Shown here piece by piece: positions 3,329-51,527 of a stretch of 64,000 nucleotides of DNA. Origin of the DNA: Denitromonas halophila (GTDB taxonomy: Bacteria > Pseudomonadota > Gammaproteobacteria > Burkholderiales > Rhodocyclaceae); assembly GCF_007625155.1 (NCBI RefSeq), contig NZ_VMNK01000002.1, positions 62,001 through 126,000 on the forward strand. Direction: 5' to 3'. The translations under genes and the position numbers were made by a program. Within the stretch, counting starts at the first letter, position 1; each line of letters opens with the position of its first letter. The notes beneath the pieces are model-generated. The model made no database searches. It saw only the letters and a program-made list of their open reading frames with translations, and had not been told where the DNA came from.

Positions 3329-3416
3329 CGTAGGGCGGATAAGCCAAAGGCGCATCCGCCGCCCGTGCCCCACCTATGCGGTTTTTGGTGGATGCGCTTT
3401 GCCTATCCGCCCTACG
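3329..3416. repeat. Imperfect palindromic repeat in the hupL-hupC gap
   Basis: The left arm (3329-3360) begins CGTAGGGCGGATAAGC. The right arm (3387-3416) ends GCCTATCCGCCCTACG and pairs with it over about 30 bases with a few mismatches; a 26-base loop lies between. The outer CGTAGGGCGG block is the same sequence found at 17548, 19232, 43603 and 44049. As RNA it would form a strong stem between hupL and hupC. That could protect the hupSL message or reduce readthrough, which is inference. There is no U-tract, so it is not a classical terminator. Confidence 0.8.
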
Positions 3417-3442
3417 GGACCTTTCTCCCAAGGAGAAGAAAG

Positions 3443-4150
3443 ATGCTCGCTGAACAAGATCAATTCGAAGCCGAACGCAGTGCGCGCATGGTCAAGGCGG
3501 TCTATGTGTACGAGGCGCCGCTGCGCCTGTGGCACTGGGTCAACGCCCTGGCCATCACGGTACTCGCCATCACCGGCTATTTCATCGGCCTGCCGCTGCC
3601 CTCGGTGCCGGGGGAGGCCAGCAACAGCTTTTTGATGGGTTATATCCGCTTCGCCCACTTTGCTGCCGCCTATATCTTTGCCATCGGCTTCATCGGCCGC
3701 ATCTACTGGGCCTTTGTCGGCAACCACCACGCGCGGCAAATTTTCATCCTGCCGGTGTGGAACATGAAGTGGTGGAGCGAGGTGTTTTACGAGCTGCGCT
3801 GGTATCTGTTCCTGGTGAAAGAGCCCAAGAAGTATGTCGGCCACAACCCGCTCGCGCAGCTGATGATGTTTCTGTTCTTCACTGTTGGCGCGGTGTACAT
3901 GATCTGTACCGGCTTCGCGTTGTATGGCGAAGGTCTCGGCGAGGGCAGCTGGGCGTCGCAGATGTTTGGCTGGGTGATGACGGCCGTGGGTGGCAACAGC
4001 ATGCAGGTGCATAGCTGGCACCGGTTAGGCATGTGGGTCACCGTCAGCTTTGCCGTGGTGCATATTTATGCCGCGATCCGCGAAGACATCATGAGTCGGC
4101 AGAGCCTGATCTCCACCATGATCAGCGGCTGGCGGATGTTCAAGGACTGA
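3443..4150 (+). CDS. hupC: Ni/Fe-hydrogenase cytochrome b subunit HupC/HoxZ
   Basis: This di-heme membrane cytochrome b anchors HupSL and passes electrons from H2 to the quinone pool. The ATG at 3443 follows AAGGAGAAG and gives 235 aa, the usual size. Family features are the N-terminal VYVYEAPLRLWHWVNAL with a helix-embedded histidine, further histidines in IRFAHFAAAY and VHSWHRLGMW, and four hydrophobic segments. It is the last gene of the hupSLC unit. In related bacteria hupD follows directly; here hupD is 3.9 kb away. Confidence 0.96.
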   Translation: MLAEQDQFEAERSARMVKAVYVYEAPLRLWHWVNALAITVLAITGYFIGLPLPSVPGEASNSFLMGYIRFAHFAAAYIFAIGFIGRIYWAFVGNHHARQIFILPVWNMKWWSEVFYELRWYLFLVKEPKKYVGHNPLAQLMMFLFFTVGAVYMICTGFALYGEGLGEGSWASQMFGWVMTAVGGNSMQVHSWHRLGMWVTVSFAVVHIYAAIREDIMSRQSLISTMISGWRMFKD

Positions 4151-5484: not shown

Positions 5485-6114
5485 ATGTCTGCCGCAATCG
5501 CCGCCACCGACATCCGCCTTCACGGTTTGCAGCTTTCCGGTCATAGCCATCGAATTAGTCTGTTCCTGTCGCTGCTGCAACTGCCTCATGAGCATATCGA
5601 AGTGGATTTGCCTGGTGGCGCTCACAAGCGCCCCGAGTTCCTGGCCATGAATCCGTTCGGGCAGGTGCCCGTGTTGCAGGACGGCGCGCTGACGCTGCCG
5701 GATTCGAACGCCATCCTGGTGTATCTCGCCAAGCGCTACGGCGGCGCGCAGTGGCTACCCACCGATTCCGTGGGGGCGGCGAGGGTGCAGCGTTGGTTGT
5801 CGGTGGCGGCCGGTCCGTTGGCGTCGGGCCCAGCCATGGCGCGCATCCACGTCGTGTTCGGCAAGAACCAGCCGGACCCTGCACTGGTCGAGCGCAGCCA
5901 CGCGCTGCTGGCGGTGATGGATGCAGCGTTGGCCGATTCGCCCTTCCTGGTGGGTGAGGCACCGACCATTGCCGACATCGCTTGCTACAGCTACACCGCC
6001 CATGCCCCCGAAGGCGGGGTTGGGCTGGCTGGTTATCCGAATGTGTGTGCCTGGTTGGCGCGCATCGAGGCCTTGCCGCACTTTGTCGGCATGCCAGCCA
6101 CGCCGCTGGCTTGA
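5485..6114 (+). CDS. Glutathione S-transferase family protein
   Basis: The N-terminal thioredoxin fold shows HSHRISLFLSLLQLPHEHI, the glutathione-site motif NPFGQVPVL and PDSNAILVYLAKRYG. An all-helical C-terminal domain follows (about residues 85-205). The ATG at 5485 is preferred because GGAG lies about 9 bases upstream; an in-frame ATG at 5452 would add 11 residues. It is divergent from the LysR gene and 12 bases from the FMN-binding protein gene, so the two may be co-transcribed. The substrate is unknown; a detoxification role is inferred from the family. Confidence 0.9.
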   Translation: MSAAIAATDIRLHGLQLSGHSHRISLFLSLLQLPHEHIEVDLPGGAHKRPEFLAMNPFGQVPVLQDGALTLPDSNAILVYLAKRYGGAQWLPTDSVGAARVQRWLSVAAGPLASGPAMARIHVVFGKNQPDPALVERSHALLAVMDAALADSPFLVGEAPTIADIACYSYTAHAPEGGVGLAGYPNVCAWLARIEALPHFVGMPATPLA

Positions 6115-6126
6115 GTGTTCAAGATC

Positions 6127-7020
6127 ATGTCAGTCTTTCATGCGGGTGAGCGCGCGATACAGCAACGCGCCGGTTTTGGCGATGCGGCGCTGACTGTTGG
6201 CGAGCGCTTTATTCGTGGCGTCATGCCTGAGCAACATCAGGTTTTTTTCGCGCAACTGCCATTTGTGGTGGTCGGCGTGCTTGACGCCCAGGGCCAGGCG
6301 CGTGCCGGTCTGCTGGCAGGGGCGCCGGGCTTCATGAATTCGCCAGACGATCGGCATCTTGATATTCAGGCGGGCGCAGTGGTTGGCGAGGGCGTGGCCG
6401 AACGGCTGACGCCAGGCGCGCAGATCGGTCTGCTCGGCATTGAGGCCCATACTCGGCGGCGTAACCGGTTGAATGGTCTGGTTGCCGACGCGCTCGATGG
6501 TCGCGTGAGCGTGCGCGTTACTCAGAGCTTCGGTAACTGTCCCAAATATATCTACCCGCGCCGAATCGAATGGGCGCCCATTGTGGCAGGCGTCAAACGG
6601 GTGGTGAGTGGCTGGGATGCCGATGCCAGACGCATGGTGGCGGCTGCCGACACTTTTTTCATTGCTACCGCTCACCCCGAGGCGGCAGACGCCTCCGCGG
6701 CGGCGCACGGGGTGGATGTGTCGCACCGGGGCGGCGAAGCGGGCTTCGTTTGCATCAGGGATGCGACCTTGAGCGTGCCCGACTATCCTGGCAATCGGTT
6801 TTTCAACACGCTGGGCAATCTTGAACTCAACCCGTGGGCCGGATTGCTGTTTATCGACTTTGAAGCGCGGTCGTTTCTGCAACTGGCGGTGCGCGCGCGT
6901 CTTGAGTGGTTGCCTCCATCGCAGACGGAGTCGAAGGGCAACAATCGTGTGCTGCACTTCGATGTCCTGGCGGCGCAACGCACCGAAGGCGTGCTGCCAT
7001 TGGTTTTGGCCGCGCAGTGA
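6127..7020 (+). CDS. Pyridoxamine 5'-phosphate oxidase-like FMN-binding protein
   Basis: The protein (297 aa) resembles the split-barrel flavin-binding family often found near or fused to ferredoxin reductases. Supporting pieces are SVFHAGERAIQ at the start, SFGNCPKYI in the middle, VSHRGGEAGFV, and DYPGNRFFNTLGNL followed by GLLFIDF. The ATG at 6127 gives the family-like N-terminus; a GTG at 6115 would overlap nothing and add four residues. It lies just after the GST gene on the same strand and ends at a bidirectional terminator. Its reaction is unknown; flavin-dependent reduction is an inference. Confidence 0.85.
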   Translation: MSVFHAGERAIQQRAGFGDAALTVGERFIRGVMPEQHQVFFAQLPFVVVGVLDAQGQARAGLLAGAPGFMNSPDDRHLDIQAGAVVGEGVAERLTPGAQIGLLGIEAHTRRRNRLNGLVADALDGRVSVRVTQSFGNCPKYIYPRRIEWAPIVAGVKRVVSGWDADARRMVAAADTFFIATAHPEAADASAAAHGVDVSHRGGEAGFVCIRDATLSVPDYPGNRFFNTLGNLELNPWAGLLFIDFEARSFLQLAVRARLEWLPPSQTESKGNNRVLHFDVLAAQRTEGVLPLVLAAQ

Positions 7021-15846: not shown

Positions 15847-16092
15847 ATGTGCCTCGCCATTCCCGCCCGCATTGTTGAAAAGCTCGACGGCGACGCCGCC
15901 CGTGTTGACCTCGGTGGCGTACGCAAGGAGATCTCGCTCGCACTGGTTGACGGCGCTGAAGTGGGCGACTACGTGATCGTGCATGTCGGCTATGCGCTCT
16001 CCAGACTCGATCCTGAAGAAGCCGCCAAAACGCTCGCCTTGTTTGAGGAAAGTGGGCTCGACCTGCAAGCCATCGCCGCCGGCAGCGCATGA
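15847..16092 (+). CDS. hypC: Hydrogenase chaperone HypC
   Basis: An 81-aa HypC starting MCLAIPARIV. Cys2 binds the iron of the Fe(CN)2CO precursor in complex with HypD. The ATG is set by the essential Met-Cys start. It lies 16 bases after hypF, and its end overlaps hypD (ATGA). Confidence 0.97.
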   Translation: MCLAIPARIVEKLDGDAARVDLGGVRKEISLALVDGAEVGDYVIVHVGYALSRLDPEEAAKTLALFEESGLDLQAIAAGSA

Positions 16093-17249
16093 AATACGTC
16101 GACGAATTCCGCGACGGCGATGTCGCCGCCAAGCTCGCCACGGCCATCGCGCGTGAGGCCGACACCGGCCGTGACTACGCCTTCATGGAGTTCTGCGGCG
16201 GCCACACGCACGCCATCTCGCGCTACGGCGTGACCGACTTGCTGCCTGTCAATGTGCGCATGATCCACGGCCCCGGCTGCCCGGTCTGCGTATTGCCCAT
16301 CGGCCGCATCGACATGGCCATCCGGCTGGTGTTGTCGCGCCCCGACGTGATCCTGTGCACCTATGGCGACTGCTTGCGTGTGCCGGCCTCTGAGCAGCTG
16401 TCGCTGCTCAAGGCCAAGGCGCGCGGTGGCGATGTGCGCATGGTGTATTCCGCGGCCGATGCGCTGGCGCTGGCGAGCAAGCACCCCGAGCGCGAGGTGG
16501 TGTTCTTCGCCATCGGCTTCGAAACCACCACCCCGCCGACTGCGCTGGTCATCAAGCAGGCACAGGCGATTGGGCTGGCCAACTTCAGCGTGATCTGCAA
16601 CCACGTGCTCACGCCGTCGGCGATCATGACGATTCTGGAGTCGCCCGAAGTGCGCGACCTGGGCACGGTGCCGCTCGATGGATTCATTGGCCCGGCGCAT
16701 GTGTCGACCATCATCGGTAGTCGGCCCTACGCCTTCTTTGCCGAGGAATATCGCAAGCCGGTTGTCATCGCAGGCTTCGAACCGCTGGATGTGATGCAGG
16801 CCATTCGCATGCTGATCCGGCAGGTCAATGAAGGCCGCGCCGAGGTCGAAAACGAATTCACCCGTGCGGTGAGTGAGGACGGCAATTTGAAGGCGCAGGC
16901 ACTGGTCAGCGAAGTGTTCGAACTGCGTCGCAGCTTCGAATGGCGCGGCCTGCACGAAGTGCCGTACTCGGCCCTGCGCATTCGGCGCGCGTTTGCCGAC
17001 TGGGACGCCGAGTGCAAGTTCGGGCTGGCCTTTAAGTCCGTGCCAGACAACAAGGCCTGTGAATGCGGGGCGATTCTGCGCGGCGTGAAGACACCGACCG
17101 ACTGCAAGATTTTTGGCACGGTGTGTACGCCGGAGAACCCGATGGGCTCGTGCATGGTGTCGAGTGAGGGCGCCTGTGCGGCGCACTACAACTATGGGCG
17201 GTTTCGGGATATACCGGTGGTGGCCGAGCCGTCGGCGGCGGTGTCTTAA
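16089..17249 (+). CDS. hypD: Hydrogenase maturation protein HypD
   Basis: HypD is the iron-sulfur scaffold on which Fe(CN)2CO is built. Signature motifs are EFCGGHTHAISRYG (about residues 36-49), IHGPGCPVCVLP and GFETTTPPTA. The C-terminal cluster ligands are in CGAILRG, CKIFGTVCTP and SCMVSSEGACAAHY. The length of 386 aa is slightly above average. It is the last gene before a 652-base repeat-filled gap. Confidence 0.97.
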   Translation: MKYVDEFRDGDVAAKLATAIAREADTGRDYAFMEFCGGHTHAISRYGVTDLLPVNVRMIHGPGCPVCVLPIGRIDMAIRLVLSRPDVILCTYGDCLRVPASEQLSLLKAKARGGDVRMVYSAADALALASKHPEREVVFFAIGFETTTPPTALVIKQAQAIGLANFSVICNHVLTPSAIMTILESPEVRDLGTVPLDGFIGPAHVSTIIGSRPYAFFAEEYRKPVVIAGFEPLDVMQAIRMLIRQVNEGRAEVENEFTRAVSEDGNLKAQALVSEVFELRRSFEWRGLHEVPYSALRIRRAFADWDAECKFGLAFKSVPDNKACECGAILRGVKTPTDCKIFGTVCTPENPMGSCMVSSEGACAAHYNYGRFRDIPVVAEPSAAVS

Positions 17250-17270
17250 GCCGTGCCGGGCGCTTGGTTG

Positions 17271-17563
17271 GGTGCTCGCTTCGGATTCACGTTGGCTGGG
17301 TCTCGCCCCGGCGGGCGACATCCTTTCTTGCACGCGCAAGAAAGGACGCAAAGAAGGCGCCCCGCTGTACCGCCGGCTTCGCCGGTCCCCTCTCTGCGCC
17401 CGGCGCCGGCGGGTCGTGTCGCAAACTCGCCCTTCGGGCTCAGACAAGCGACACGACAATTCCCGCCGCCCCCGGACTCCGTTCGGCGGCACAGAAGGGG
17501 TTGGGGTACGCGGGCTCGGCTTCGCCATCGCCCGCTCGGGCGGCGCGTCGTAGGGCGGGTTTC
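17271..17563 (+). repeat. Copy A of a ~280-bp structured intergenic repeat
   Basis: The unit begins GGTGCTCGCTTCG and holds three stem-loops. The first is TCGCCC with GGGCGA near 17302. The second is TCCTTTCTTG (17321-17330) with CAAGAAAGGA (17337-17346). The third is a perfect 10-bp stem, GTCGTGTCGC (17413-17422) with GCGACACGAC (17448-17457), around a conserved loop with CTCGCCCTTCGGGC. It ends with GTAGGGCGGGTTTC. Copies B and C share the blocks, order and spacing. Open frames through it are not credible genes. With copy B it fills the whole hypD-hypE gap. Confidence 0.85.
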
Positions 17564-17577
17564 AACCCGCCCTACGA
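17548..17577. repeat. Perfect 30-bp palindrome joining repeat copies A and B
   Basis: The arms TCGTAGGGCGGGTT (17548-17561) and AACCCGCCCTACGA (17564-17577) pair perfectly around a 2-base loop. It sits almost at the centre of the A/B inverted pair and consists of the tails of both copies. The same tail stands alone at 43603 and 44049. Confidence 0.9.
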
Positions 17578-17832
17578 AACCTCCGATTGTTCCAGCTGTT
17601 GCCGGCGGGCACCCCGTTCCCCTCTGTCGTGCCGAGCGTAGCAAGTGCGGGGCGGAAAAAGCGGCTTCGCTGTCTGAGCCCGCAGGGCGAGTTTGCGAAG
17701 TCGCCCGCCCCGGGCTTGCGGAGGGAGGGAAGCCCGAAGGGCCACGACAGTGGGGCGTGCTTCTTTGCTTACCTTTCTTGCACGAGCAAGAAAGTAAGTC
17801 GCCCGCCGGGGCGAGACCCGGCCAACGCTCGC
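17562..17832 (-). repeat. Copy B of the ~280-bp repeat, inverted
   Basis: Read on the minus strand it matches copies A and C: GCGAGCGTTGGCCGGGTC at the head, a CTTTCTTG/CAAGAAAG stem (17773-17794), the CTTCGC/GCGAAG stem (17665-17700) around a CTCGCCCTGCGGGCTC loop, then a GAGGGGAACGGGG block and the GTAGGGCGGGTT tail. It is fused tail to tail with copy A. Bases 17833-17901, between it and hypE, hold nothing recognised. Confidence 0.85.
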
Positions 17833-17901
17833 CTCAAGAATTGCACAGCCCGTTCTACGGGCAAGAATCAACGACACGGCGCAACGCGCCCACCTACTCC
17901 T

Positions 17902-18957
17902 ATGGCTGAAATCAAAAAGGGCTACGTCCGCCCCCTGGACCTCAAGACCGGCCGTATCGACATGGGCCACGGCGCCGGTGGCAAGGCGATGGCTCAGCTC
18001 ATCGACGAGATCTTCGCCCGAGCCTTCGCTAACGACTATCTCGCCCAGGGCGACGACGGCGCCGTGCTGCCGGCCCCCGAACCCGGCGAGCGGCTGGTGA
18101 TGGCCACCGATGCGCACGTGGTGTCGCCCTTGTTCTTCCCCGGTGGCGACATCGGCTGCCTGTCGGTGCACGGCACGATCAACGATGTGGCGGTGATGGG
18201 GGCGCGGCCGCTGTATCTGGCGGCGAGCTTCATCCTCGAAGAAGGTTTTCCGCTGGCGGAGCTCAAGCGCATTGTGGATTCCATGGCCGCCGCCAGCCGC
18301 GAGGCCAGGGTGCCGGTGGTGACTGGCGACACCAAGGTGGTGGAGCAGGGCAAGGGCGATGGGGTGTTCATCAGCACCACGGCGGTGGGTGCCTTGCCGG
18401 CGGGGCGGTCGCTGTCGGGTGCGAATGCGCAGCCGGGCGATGTGATTCTGGTCTCCGGCACGCTGGGCGATCACGGCATGGCGATCATGGCGCAGCGCGA
18501 GTCGCTGGCCTTTGATTCTGAAATTGCCTCCGATACCGCCGCGTTGCACGGTTTGATCGCCGATTTGCTGGCTGCGGTGCCGAGCGTGCGTGTGTTGCGC
18601 GACCCGACGCGTGGCGGGCTGGCGACGACTCTCAACGAGATCGCCACGCAGTCCGGCGTCGGCATGACGCTGGACGAAAAAGCGATTCCGGTGCGCGAGC
18701 AGGTGGACGCCGCTTGCGAGCTGCTTGGACTTGATCCGCTGTATGTGGCCAATGAGGGCAAGCTGGTGGTCATCGTGCCGGCCGAGGCCGCCGACGCGGC
18801 GCTGGCGGCGCTGCGCGATCATCCGCTGGGGCGCGAGGCGGCGCGCATCGGCGAGGTGACGATCGACCCGAACTGCTTCGTCCAGATCCGTACCGGATTC
18901 GGCGGCAAGCGCATGGTGGACTGGCTGTCGGGCGAGCAGTTGCCGAGGATCTGCTGA
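17902..18957 (+). CDS. hypE: Carbamoyl dehydratase HypE
   Basis: HypE dehydrates the S-carbamoyl group to a thiocyanate and donates cyanide to the HypCD iron. It has the PurM-like fold (GHGAGGKAMAQLIDEIF at the start, DDGAVLPAPEPGERLVMATD, GDTKVVEQGKGDG). The C-terminus ends in PRIC, whose terminal cysteine is the carbamoyl acceptor. The ATG at 17902 gives 351 aa; longer in-frame starts run into the repeat. It is the only hyp gene separated from its neighbours by long gaps, both filled by repeats. Confidence 0.96.
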   Translation: MAEIKKGYVRPLDLKTGRIDMGHGAGGKAMAQLIDEIFARAFANDYLAQGDDGAVLPAPEPGERLVMATDAHVVSPLFFPGGDIGCLSVHGTINDVAVMGARPLYLAASFILEEGFPLAELKRIVDSMAAASREARVPVVTGDTKVVEQGKGDGVFISTTAVGALPAGRSLSGANAQPGDVILVSGTLGDHGMAIMAQRESLAFDSEIASDTAALHGLIADLLAAVPSVRVLRDPTRGGLATTLNEIATQSGVGMTLDEKAIPVREQVDAACELLGLDPLYVANEGKLVVIVPAEAADAALAALRDHPLGREAARIGEVTIDPNCFVQIRTGFGGKRMVDWLSGEQLPRIC

Positions 18958-18974
18958 TGGACGCATGCCGCGAC

Positions 18975-19254
18975 GGTGCTCGCTTCGAAGGGACGTTGGC
19001 CGGGTTTCGCCCCGGCGGGCGACTTCCTTTCTTGTGGCGACAAGAAAGGAAGCAAAGAAGCGCCCCCCGCCGCCGTGGCCCTTCGGGCTGCCCTCGCTCC
19101 GCGAGCCCGTGGCGGGCAGCTTCGCAAACTCGCCCTTCCGGGGCTCAGACAGCGAAGCCGCTTGATCCGCCCCGGGCCCGCTGCGCTCGGCTCGGCAGAG
19201 GGGGAAGGGCGCGCCCGGGCGTCACCTCCCCCGTAGGGCGGGTTTCAAGCCGCC
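18975..19254 (+). repeat. Copy C of the ~280-bp structured repeat
   Basis: It has the same order as copy A: GGTGCTCGCTTCG, a TTCGCCC/GGGCGA stem, a perfect 11-bp stem TTCCTTTCTTG (19024-19034) with CAAGAAAGGAA (19041-19051), then GCTTCGC (19119-19125) with GCGAAGC (19152-19158), a CGGCAGAGGGGGAAGGG block and the tail GTAGGGCGGGTTTCAAG (from 19233). It fills the 320-base gap between hypE and hoxX. It is a single copy, without the inverted partner seen at A/B. Confidence 0.85.
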
Positions 19255-19277
19255 AACATCGATTCGAGACCTGACCC

Positions 19278-21008
19278 ATGCGCATTTTGCTGCTCACCCA
19301 TAGCTTCAACAGCCTCACCCAGCGCCTCTTCGCCGAGCTGTGCGAGGACGGTCACGAGGTGTCGGTCGAGTTTGATATCGCCGACTCGGTGGCCGAAGAG
19401 GCGGTGGCGCTGTTCGCGCCCGAGGTGATCGTCGCGCCTTTCCTCAAGCGGGCGGTACCCGAATCGATCTGGTGCGAGCACCTTACGCTGATCGTGCACC
19501 CCGGCATCGTCGGCGACCGTGGCCCGTCGGCGCTCGATTGGGCGATCATGAATGGCGAGGCCACGTGGGGCGTGACGGTACTGCAGGCTGAGGCCGAGAT
19601 GGACGCCGGGCCGGTCTGGGCGACGCGGGAATTCCCGATGCGCGCAGCGCCCAAGGCGAGTGTTTACCGCACTGAAGTGAGCGAAGGCGCGCTGGCGGCG
19701 GTGCGCGAGGCGCTGTCGCAGGTGGCGGGCTGGCGTGCCGGCACGTGGTCGCCGGTGCCGCTGGGCGACTGGCCGAACGCGCGCGGGCAGTGGCGCGCGC
19801 TGATGCGTCAGGCTGATCGGCAGATTGATTGGTCGACCGACACGACCGCCACGGTGTTGGCCAAGATCCGCGCGGCTGATGGTTTTCCCGGTGTGGCCGA
19901 TGCGCTGTTTGGCGAGGCGTGTCATCTGTTTGATGCGCAAGCCGGCACGGTGCCCGCTGGTGCGCAGCCGGGCGCGGTGGTGGGGCGGCGCGATGGCGCG
20001 ATCCTGCGTGCGACGGTCGATGGCGCGGTGTGGATTGGTCATGTGAAACGCGGCGGCAGCGATCACCCCTTCAAGTTGCCGGTGACGCTGGCCTTCGCCG
20101 ACGAGATCGCCGCGCTGCTGGTGCTGCATGGCGATGCCGACGCCGCCGAGATCGGCTACCGGGAATCGGATGATGGCCGGGTCGGCTTCCTGCGCTTCGA
20201 CTTCACCAACGGCGCGATGGGCACCGACCAGTGCGAACGCCTGCGCGAGGCCATTGGCGCGGCAGGCAAGCGGCGGACGCGGGTGCTGGTGCTCGAAGGC
20301 GGGCGCGATTTCTGGTCGAACGGCATTCACTTGAACGTGATCGAAGCGGCCGAATCGCCGGCCGATGAATCCTGGGCCAACATCAACGCGATGAACGATG
20401 TGTGCCTCGCGCTGCTGCAGCTGACGGACAAACTCACTGTCGCGGCGATGCGCGGCAATGCTGGCGCGGGCGGTTGTTTTCTGGCACTCGCGGCCGACGT
20501 CGTGTGGGCGCGCGAGGGCGTGGTGATGAACCCGCACTACAAGAACATGGGCAACCTGTTTGGCTCGGAGTACTGGAGCTATCTGCTACCGCGTCGCGTA
20601 GGCGCCGAGGTGGGCCGGCAGATCATGGGCGATCGCTTGCCGCTGCTGGCGCGCAAGGCGGTGGCGTTGGGGCTGATTGACGATTGTTTTGGCGACACAC
20701 CAGCCGCGTTTGAAGCCGAGGTGGTGAGGCGTGCCACGGCGCTGGCGACTGATCCGGCGCTGTCCGCGCGCATCGACGACAAGAAATCCCGCCGTGCCGT
20801 TGACGAGGCGGCCAAGCCGCTGGCTGACTACCGCGCCGAGGAGCTGCGCCACATGCAGCGCAATTTCTATGGCTTTGACCCGAGCTATCACGTGGCGCGC
20901 TATCACTTCGTGATCAAGAGCCCGCAGTCGTGGACGCCGCGCCATCTGGCGCGCCATCGGGATCTGGGCTGGCAGGCGCCGGCCACACAAGAGAGTGTTG
21001 TGACATGA
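19278..21008 (+). CDS. hoxX: HoxX/HypX, CO-forming hydrogenase maturation protein
   Basis: HoxX supplies the active-site CO ligand under oxic conditions from formyl-tetrahydrofolate, as established for aerobic H2 oxidisers. The N-terminal half is formyltransferase-like (HPGIVGDRGPSALDWAI near residues 75-91). The C-terminal half is an enoyl-CoA hydratase-like domain (GNAGAGGCFLALAADVVWAR). The tail NFYGFDPSYHVARYHFV is characteristic. The fusion and the length of 576 aa are normal for the family. Its presence agrees with an enzyme used in air. The stop overlaps the hoxA start. Confidence 0.96.
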   Translation: MRILLLTHSFNSLTQRLFAELCEDGHEVSVEFDIADSVAEEAVALFAPEVIVAPFLKRAVPESIWCEHLTLIVHPGIVGDRGPSALDWAIMNGEATWGVTVLQAEAEMDAGPVWATREFPMRAAPKASVYRTEVSEGALAAVREALSQVAGWRAGTWSPVPLGDWPNARGQWRALMRQADRQIDWSTDTTATVLAKIRAADGFPGVADALFGEACHLFDAQAGTVPAGAQPGAVVGRRDGAILRATVDGAVWIGHVKRGGSDHPFKLPVTLAFADEIAALLVLHGDADAAEIGYRESDDGRVGFLRFDFTNGAMGTDQCERLREAIGAAGKRRTRVLVLEGGRDFWSNGIHLNVIEAAESPADESWANINAMNDVCLALLQLTDKLTVAAMRGNAGAGGCFLALAADVVWAREGVVMNPHYKNMGNLFGSEYWSYLLPRRVGAEVGRQIMGDRLPLLARKAVALGLIDDCFGDTPAAFEAEVVRRATALATDPALSARIDDKKSRRAVDEAAKPLADYRAEELRHMQRNFYGFDPSYHVARYHFVIKSPQSWTPRHLARHRDLGWQAPATQESVVT

Positions 21009-51383: not shown

Positions 51384-51451
51384 GCGGTCAATTCGGCGGC
51401 GATTCGGTCAGTGTGCGCTGATGCTTTAGCTGCAGAGTCGGACATTGGACG

Positions 51452-51480
51452 AAAAAAAGCCCGGGCCAGAGACCCGGGCT
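51452..51480 (-). terminator. Rho-independent terminator of the pyr cluster
   Basis: The stem AGCCCGGG (51458-51465) with CCCGGGCT (51473-51480) is followed on the minus strand by TTTTTTT. It lies about 130 bases beyond the pyrC' stop, with nothing else between them on that strand except the hairpin at 51528. It may also serve as a U-tract-less stop for the acyl-CoA synthetase gene. Confidence 0.8.
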
Positions 51481-51527
51481 GAATCCACACCAAATTGTTG
51501 CGCGTGGAGGAGACGGCTCAACCATAG

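Follow-up and report, generated by a model that had tools for sequence, protein, structure and literature searches.

Repeat Units in the Gaps Flanking hypE

The window analysed here is the whole stretch of 64,000 nucleotides from a contig of Denitromonas halophila. It contains three successive open reading frames on the forward strand, for which the names hypD, hypE, and hoxX are those given by the initial annotation from its own reading of the ORFs. According to the ORF list and the sequence, the hypE ORF is flanked by gaps of 652 bp (17250–17901) and 320 bp (18958–19277), and three copies of one repeat unit, A, B, and C, lie in these two gaps, as originally described. Self-comparison of the window also bore out the orientation, in which A and B are inverted to each other and C is single and oriented like A. 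In the search within the window alone, B and C share 85% identity over 226 bp (E = 5e-65) and A and C share 78% identity over 186 bp (E = 2e-32); with E values so low, the likeness among the three copies is not due to chance. The features are summarized in Table 1.

Table 1. Features of the hypD–hypE–hoxX region, in positions of the window.
Feature	Positions	Strand	Basis or remark
ORF named hypD, left neighbour	16089–17249	+	ORF list; putative name
Degenerate outer flank of arm A (GGTGC..CTTCG "head")	17271–17290	+	Conserved partly, outside some copies only
Core of unit A (subtype II), the left arm of the pair without cargo	17291–17499	+	22-copy alignment, subtype, fold
Inner extension of arm A (GGGCTCGGCTTCGCC..GCCC)	17500–17534	+	Follows the core in most type II copies (alignment)
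Exact 30-bp REP-like palindrome between A and B	17548–17577	none	Separate short repeat family
Unit B core, subtype Ia, right arm, tail toward A	17619–17826	−	Alignment, subtype, fold
ORF named hypE, between the pair and C	17902–18957	+	ATG at 17902; putative name
Unit C core, lone arm, Ia body	18995–19203	+	Head region nearest to one type II copy
REP-like CGTAGGGCGGGTTTCAAGCCGCC past unit C	19232–19254	none	Sequence and window self-comparison
ORF named hoxX, right neighbour	19278–21008	+	ORF list; putative name

The limits of the unit were determined from an alignment of 22 full copies in the D. halophila genome (G000), which leaves out the truncated copies L020 and L024. The conserved unit extends from (A/G)TTGGCCGGGTCTCGCCCCGGCGGGCGA to AGAGGG over 208–211 nt, where the core start reads (A/G)TTGGCC and the core end AGAGGG. 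Copy A, previously delimited at 17271–17563, is accordingly represented by the shorter core given in Table 1. The GGTGCTCGCTTCG "head" is common to A and C, and elsewhere it is partly recognisable outside some copies only; it is a poorly conserved outer flank instead of the part of the unit for which it had been taken.

The motif GTAGGGCGGGTTTC lies 48 bp (A), 41 bp (B), and 28 bp (C) beyond the core, is missing from some full units, such as L007, L011, and L015, and stands alone, without a unit, at 7 of the 33 matches in the genome. For these three reasons, A and B are not joined by their tails. The perfect 30-bp palindrome TCGTAGGGCGGGTTTCAACCCGCCCTACGA is exact, as had been reported, but it is one REP-like repeat between two opposed arms and not a fusion of the two tails. 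The supposed tail motif does occur alone elsewhere; it is an independent short repeat rather than the unit's own end. Other REP-like repeats (GGTGCAAT..CCTTCGG..ATTGCACC) are found between arms, adjoining arm II, at L010 1850–2210 and L007 2830–2900.

Three subtypes, Ia, Ib, and II, were set by short sequence marks and then applied as HMMs, and by scoring A is type II and both B and C are type Ia. Over its first 66 nt, C is 97% identical to a single type II copy (L009) and no more than 88% identical to any Ia copy, and the mean identity of this stretch is 87% over all type II copies against 86% over Ia. As the type II mean is barely above the Ia mean, it is only suggested that C might be a chimera of an Ia body and a type II-like head. 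A and B form a pair without cargo, and C is a lone arm, probably the remnant of a former pair. The bracketing of exchangeable genes by related pairs, described below, is not visible from the window alone.

Conservation of the Predicted Fold

All three copies in the window fold better as RNA than shuffled sequences do. The z-score is −3.2 for A (17291–17520), −3.1 for B (17600–17826), and −2.3 for C (18995–19222), where 0, 3, and 4 of 200 shuffles, respectively, fold equally well. For the copies of G000 taken together, RNAalifold predicted 49 pairs, 15 of them with two-sided compensatory change. Compared with 500 shuffles, the proportion of paired cells was 96% against 86%, and both this proportion and the covariation score exceeded all 500. 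The number of pairs with a change on both sides was matched by 104 of the 500 shuffles and that of further pair types by all of them, so that two of the five structure measures within the genome are not above shuffles, which counts against the reading of the units as cassette ends presented below. The weakness of these within-genome measures is attributed to the fact that the copies fall into few subtypes.

The fold was also evaluated across genera using 36 units, 33 of which come from outside G000, aligned by sequence only. Here, 44 pairs were predicted, 28 of them with two-sided compensatory change, and the covariation score was 0.397, compared with 0.127 in shuffled alignments and at most 0.137 in slid controls; none of the 500 shuffles reached it. 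The unit comprises eight to nine predicted helices, and the bases that follow AGAGGG in intact Ib copies (GGCCGTGC) can, by eye, form a further helix with GCACGGCC early in the body.

Long ORFs cross the unit in several frames, as would be the case if it were a decayed protein-coding gene or the remnant of a known insertion sequence. The changes between genera pair up in helices as compensatory changes, however, and such an origin is therefore regarded as highly improbable.

The conserved fold and the invariance of the unpaired motifs would also be explained if selection maintained the arms between genes as RNAs with a regulatory or terminating role, or as sites of protein binding, and the cargo turned over as an ordinary island by homologous recombination in the flanking core genes. 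In one locus the head hairpin is terminator-like (3 sites found, 1.3 expected). Against known RNA families, Rfam (15) gave no match at E ≤ 1 in five unit loci, which speaks against this explanation, and none within 17271–19254 at the gathering score. Elsewhere in the window, positions 51451–51515 on the reverse strand match RF02278, the Betaproteobacteria toxic small RNA, at 56.8 bits against a gathering score of 50.

Distribution across Genomes

The genomes compared are species representatives, and the comparisons run between species. The DNA search found the unit in 12 of 41 genomes, D. halophila included, and at E ≤ 0.001 none of these 41 genomes outside the family contained it. The covariance model R1 detected the unit in 60 of 150 family genomes and 34 of 68 genera, with up to 16 matches scored per genome, and in 36 of 398 phylum genomes and 27 of 213 genera, where the matches were mostly weaker; D. 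halophila is included in both counts. Among the matches listed for the head pattern, there are records of Denitromonas, Zoogloea, Hydrogenophaga, Rhodoferax, Comamonas, Polaromonas, and Cognatazoarcus. The possibility that the unit is confined to this locus does not hold, and its origin as a decayed gene is, as noted, highly improbable.

Viral contigs gave no match to an exact unit pattern, and phage records gave no unit match. Two plasmid records were found, with less than 40% of the unit covered, one of which also bears another unit. This absence from viral and phage sequences and rarity on plasmids agree with the regulatory or terminating role of the arms considered above.

Copy Number and Geometry of the Pairs

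Unit C, searched against the 34 contigs of G000, matches at 33 places. Of these, 24 are units, 2 are short hits to the internal hairpin on the reverse strand, and 7 are the motif-only places. The units form 9 inverted pairs; 5 others stand singly, and 1 further copy is truncated.

The geometry was counted in six congeneric genomes from 106 of 127 unit rows and the 24 of G000, leaving out 21 short fragments. Of the 53 neighbouring pairs at most 7 kb apart, 46 face each other with their tails and 4 with their heads, and 3 point in the same direction. All four head-to-head cases are the B–hypE–C arrangement, in G000, G001, G006, and G009. The 46 tail-to-tail pairs without exception join unlike subtypes, 44 of them I with II and 2 of them Ia with Ib. 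A wider collection of loci was selected by unit hits and overlaps the six-congener set; in it, the numbers of tail-to-tail, head-to-head, and same-direction pairs are 56, 3, and 8 at spacings up to 700 bp and 23, 5, and 2 at 701–7000 bp.

Arms of at least 90% identity occur in none of 53 pairs with a spacer below 400 bp, where the maximum is 84%, and in 7 of 23 tail-to-tail pairs with a spacer above 700 bp; since all seven are from other genera, genus and spacer are confounded in this comparison. Long palindromes are deleted in E. coli, and we read the unlikeness of close arms as the avoidance of long, unstable palindromes.

Other layouts were observed as well. In L117 and L118 of G074, the units are not opposed but follow one another in direct tandem about every 380 bp, and L044 and L045 in G008 hold arrays of four to five units in alternating orientation, in which Ib- and Ia-like subtypes alternate.

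One account of such a family is a plain non-autonomous repeat, large REPIN/BIME-like or MITE-like, that has no cassette role, where genes would sometimes come to lie between two units because both insert into the same variable regions. It accords with the 33 of 46 tail-to-tail pairs that are at most 700 bp apart and hold no gene-sized cargo, with the alternating arrays of G008 and the direct tandem ones of G074, and with the presence of a Y1 transposase in most unit-bearing genomes of the DNA search. Pseudomonas REPs also form opposed pairs and are thought to be mobilised by a RAYT (PMC3390384). As the enzyme required by the present unit, however, a RAYT is rejected: PF01797 has no match in G008 and G015, which carry 39 and 10 unit matches, respectively, and has one match in the unit-free G002, while most other carriers in the DNA search have 1–2 matches. 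Moreover, the remaining 13 pairs, at 701–7000 bp, still obey the tail-to-tail and unlike-subtype rules. Together with the behaviour of the cargo described below, this makes the plain-repeat account rather unlikely in our judgement.

Sites with and without the Pair

The joined flanks of the nine G000 pairs (s1–s9, where s9 is hypD–hypE) were searched in 8 congeners. G007, whose assembly is 86% complete, has no unit match in its genome, and the pair is absent there at s1, s3, s5, and s9, with 14–44 bp between the flank matches; G002 likewise has no pair at s1. Thus, sites free of the repeat exist in relatives, as was anticipated for a mobile family. Such absence of pairs from the same sites is difficult to reconcile with a conserved regulatory or terminating function of the arms. 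The hypD and hypE ORFs of G007 are about 25 bp apart, and the exact junction there is not fixed because the G000 DNA is too different.

G001, G004, G006, and G009 are filled at most of the nine sites; as most of the G000 sites are thus also filled in close species, no recent jump was caught within the genus. At a further site, the pair is present in G001 and G003 and, with a truncated second arm, in G009, and a single type II arm is present in G006; G000 and G004, where REP-like DNA is found, as well as G007 and G002, are without the pair. At s4, the pair adjoins, by eye, an apparent xerC 3' end to the right of L016. The s4 flank matches in G002 and G008 are 628–651 bp apart, and since G002 has no unit, something else occupies the site there.

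The initial annotation had proposed a mobile or REP-like family. The family is indeed multicopy, structured, and intergenic, with conserved ends and a REP/BIME-like layout; the clean insertion junctions with target-site duplication that were expected for it were not found. By eye no target-site duplication was consistent, and in the relatives with empty sites the DNA between the genes has diverged too far for comparison. The outer edge of the pairs is defined by the conserved opposed heads, and in G015 a 316-bp stretch is duplicated with 95.6% identity between its two places, starting within 4 bp of the head and ending about 110 bp past the tail.

The arms occupying one place may differ in subtype. 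At s5, they are II/Ia in G000 and G003 and Ia/Ib in G001 and G009, and the C position is Ia in G000 and G009 and II in G001 and G006. In a tree of 19 Ib arms, those of the argJ slot cluster by site and those of s7, s8, and the nnrU slot are mixed, where many nodes are weakly supported; the G009 arm of L089 was left out, as its outer flank has no match to the nnrU slot.

Different Cargo between Fixed Arms

At s7 and s8, five genomes each share the flanks and arms and carry five unrelated cargos per site; both flanks match in all cases except the right flank of G004 at s7. The cargo at s7, between arms Ib and II, is predicted to be a 281-aa HNH-like protein in G000, a 331-aa protein with a CARF-PDDEXK match (E = 5e-12) in G009, a 335-aa protein matching putAbiC at E = 0.06 only in G004, a 291-aa protein without a match in G006, and small ORFs in G001. 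At s8, it is a 230-aa HNH protein (Pfam, E = 1e-10) in G000, a TIR protein (TIR-TM, E = 1e-60) in G009, proteins of 207 and 334 aa without a match in G004 and G006, respectively, and a 189-aa protein with a weak bPH match in G001. G000 and G009 are about 96% identical around s7 and yet carry the HNH-like and the CARF-PDDEXK-like gene, respectively.

In blastn comparisons of the interiors over ten genome pairs per site, only pieces of about 25–210 bp are shared, mostly beside one arm; on the Ib side at s7, the longest such piece is the 208 bp common to G000 and G001. The flanks and arms of G000 are mostly 80–100% identical to those of the others per 100 bp, with a lowest value of 68, and the interior is blank. 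The exceptions in the s7 profile are the right flank, which is blank for about 1.1 kb in G004 and after about 300 bp in G006, and the left 1.3 kb, which is lacking in G001; the s8 profile covers G009, G004, and G006 against G000. A second, tandem type II arm at s8 is common to G000 and G004.

Relative to G000, homology stops at the Ib tail in G009 and G004 at s7 and in G009, G004, and G006 at s8. It continues past the tail at s7 for about 53 bp in G006 and 208 bp in G001, which counts against a cassette end located at that point. In L012, L041, L053, L085, and L086, unrelated cargo starts in each case at AGAGGGC, give or take a few bases. A recurring arm–cargo junction and a fixed inward geometry are not expected of terminators, and the regulatory explanation is on balance considered quite improbable. 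The retention of the arms at a site where the cargo differs also speaks against a plain repeat.

Two further slots were named by eye after the neighbouring ORF. Beside an nnrU-like ORF, the content varies in G001, G004, and G006, and in G000 the two arms are on separate contigs. Within one cassette, L087, two stretches (3363–3802 and 5978–6679), one of them partial, match the nnrU-like ORF, suggesting a possible duplication of the neighbouring host gene. At the argJ slot, a single Ib arm is followed by differing DNA and then by the argJ-like ORF in G001, G004, G006, and G000, where the DNA after the arm in G000 is common to G009. A second arm is thus not required in every case, which counts against the cassette reading presented below. 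The strand of the cargo is not fixed. Between the Ib tail and the cargo, CATATA(A/C)T recurs in several loci, and a promoter search of this interval in L007 gave 0 against 0.5 expected.

A nuclease, methylase, or TIR domain was found in 8 of the 22 two-armed cargo elements profiled (L007, L012, L085, L041, L037, L107, and, by Pfam only, L105 with Mrr_cat and L111 with T5orf172). The other 14 had no such domain (L086, L039, L038, L054, L053, L087, L043, L108, L109, L106, L110, L112, L123, and L134), and the set leaves out L035, L036, and three low-complexity ORFs (L113, L274, and L328). PADLOC alone marked 6 of the 22 cargo elements and none of six flank genes used as the control. "Defence" here denotes a resemblance by profile, and because the control genes are so few, the description of the elements as putative defence cassettes expresses a tendency.

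Proposed Mode of Exchange

The reading that we favour, with somewhat better than even confidence, is that the units occur in pairs as the ends of gene cassettes that are non-autonomous and exchangeable. Each arm would be kept as a folded single strand, RNA or single-stranded DNA, of 208–211 nt. Two unlike arms stand tail to tail with their heads outward, enclosing almost nothing, as in A and B, or one to several cargo genes. The comparisons show directly that the structure is conserved, that the arms keep this orientation and pair with an unlike partner, that they remain at one site in species whose cargo there differs, and that some relatives have sites free of the pair. We infer that the cargo is moved by recombination through the arms, either homologous, after DNA uptake, or by a recombinase with the folded ends as its substrate, and that the arms would first have spread as mobile elements. 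Against this reading, no recombinase or transposase belonging to the elements was found, and by eye the ORFs between the arms include no transposase of the element's own; the one IS3-like ORF between arms, in L036, is probably a later insertion.

A more specific proposal, which we put forward tentatively and hold to be less probable than its opposite, is that the elements constitute a widespread, apparently unnamed class of cassettes, in which opposed, unlike, multi-helix arms would serve as fixed docking ends. A recombination system that recognises the folded strand would exchange single genes or small operons between them, some of these antiviral, and closely related bacteria would in this way come to hold different genes at the same address.

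Comparison with Known Systems

The family resembles REPIN/BIME elements in that both are intergenic, present many times per genome, and foldable as a single strand, and occur as opposed related pairs as well as singly or in arrays; opposed, related but unlike units are found in all 46 pairs of the six genomes. A REP unit is a short palindrome of about 20–40 nt, and the present unit, at about 210 nt, is several times longer. It also differs in that a RAYT is not required and that exchangeable genes can lie between its paired copies.

MITEs and mobile insertion cassettes, such as IS231-MIC, are non-autonomous elements with inverted ends that may carry a passenger gene. The unit pairs are similarly non-autonomous, have two inverted ends whose outer edge is given by the conserved opposed heads, and can hold a passenger gene. 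Their ends are, in contrast, long and multi-branched, and neither a partner insertion sequence nor a target-site duplication was found by eye.

In integron attC cassettes and pdif/Xer modules, single genes are swapped between structured recombination sites, and the exchange of single genes between structured sites is shared by the present elements. The latter differ in having two opposed 210-nt arms per cassette and in being scattered singly rather than arrayed, and the unit head GTTGGCC does not, by eye, fit the attC consensus GTTRRRY.

R200 of Pseudomonas fluorescens SBW25 is also an intergenic repeat, listed with 320 bp and 47 copies in Table 3 of PMC2718517; as the table gives no structure, it is compared by description only. 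No account of such repeat brackets was found in the literature covered, which leaves out most subscription papers.

If the cassette reading is correct, these repeats mark the places where many chromosomes exchange accessory genes, including some for defence, singly and with no integrase in evidence. The family would also be a natural case in which palindrome avoidance shapes a family of elements. Since the arms provide a search handle, detected by R1 in half of the family genera sampled, the content of the slots can be surveyed, and the movement of small defence genes between chromosomes would become testable.
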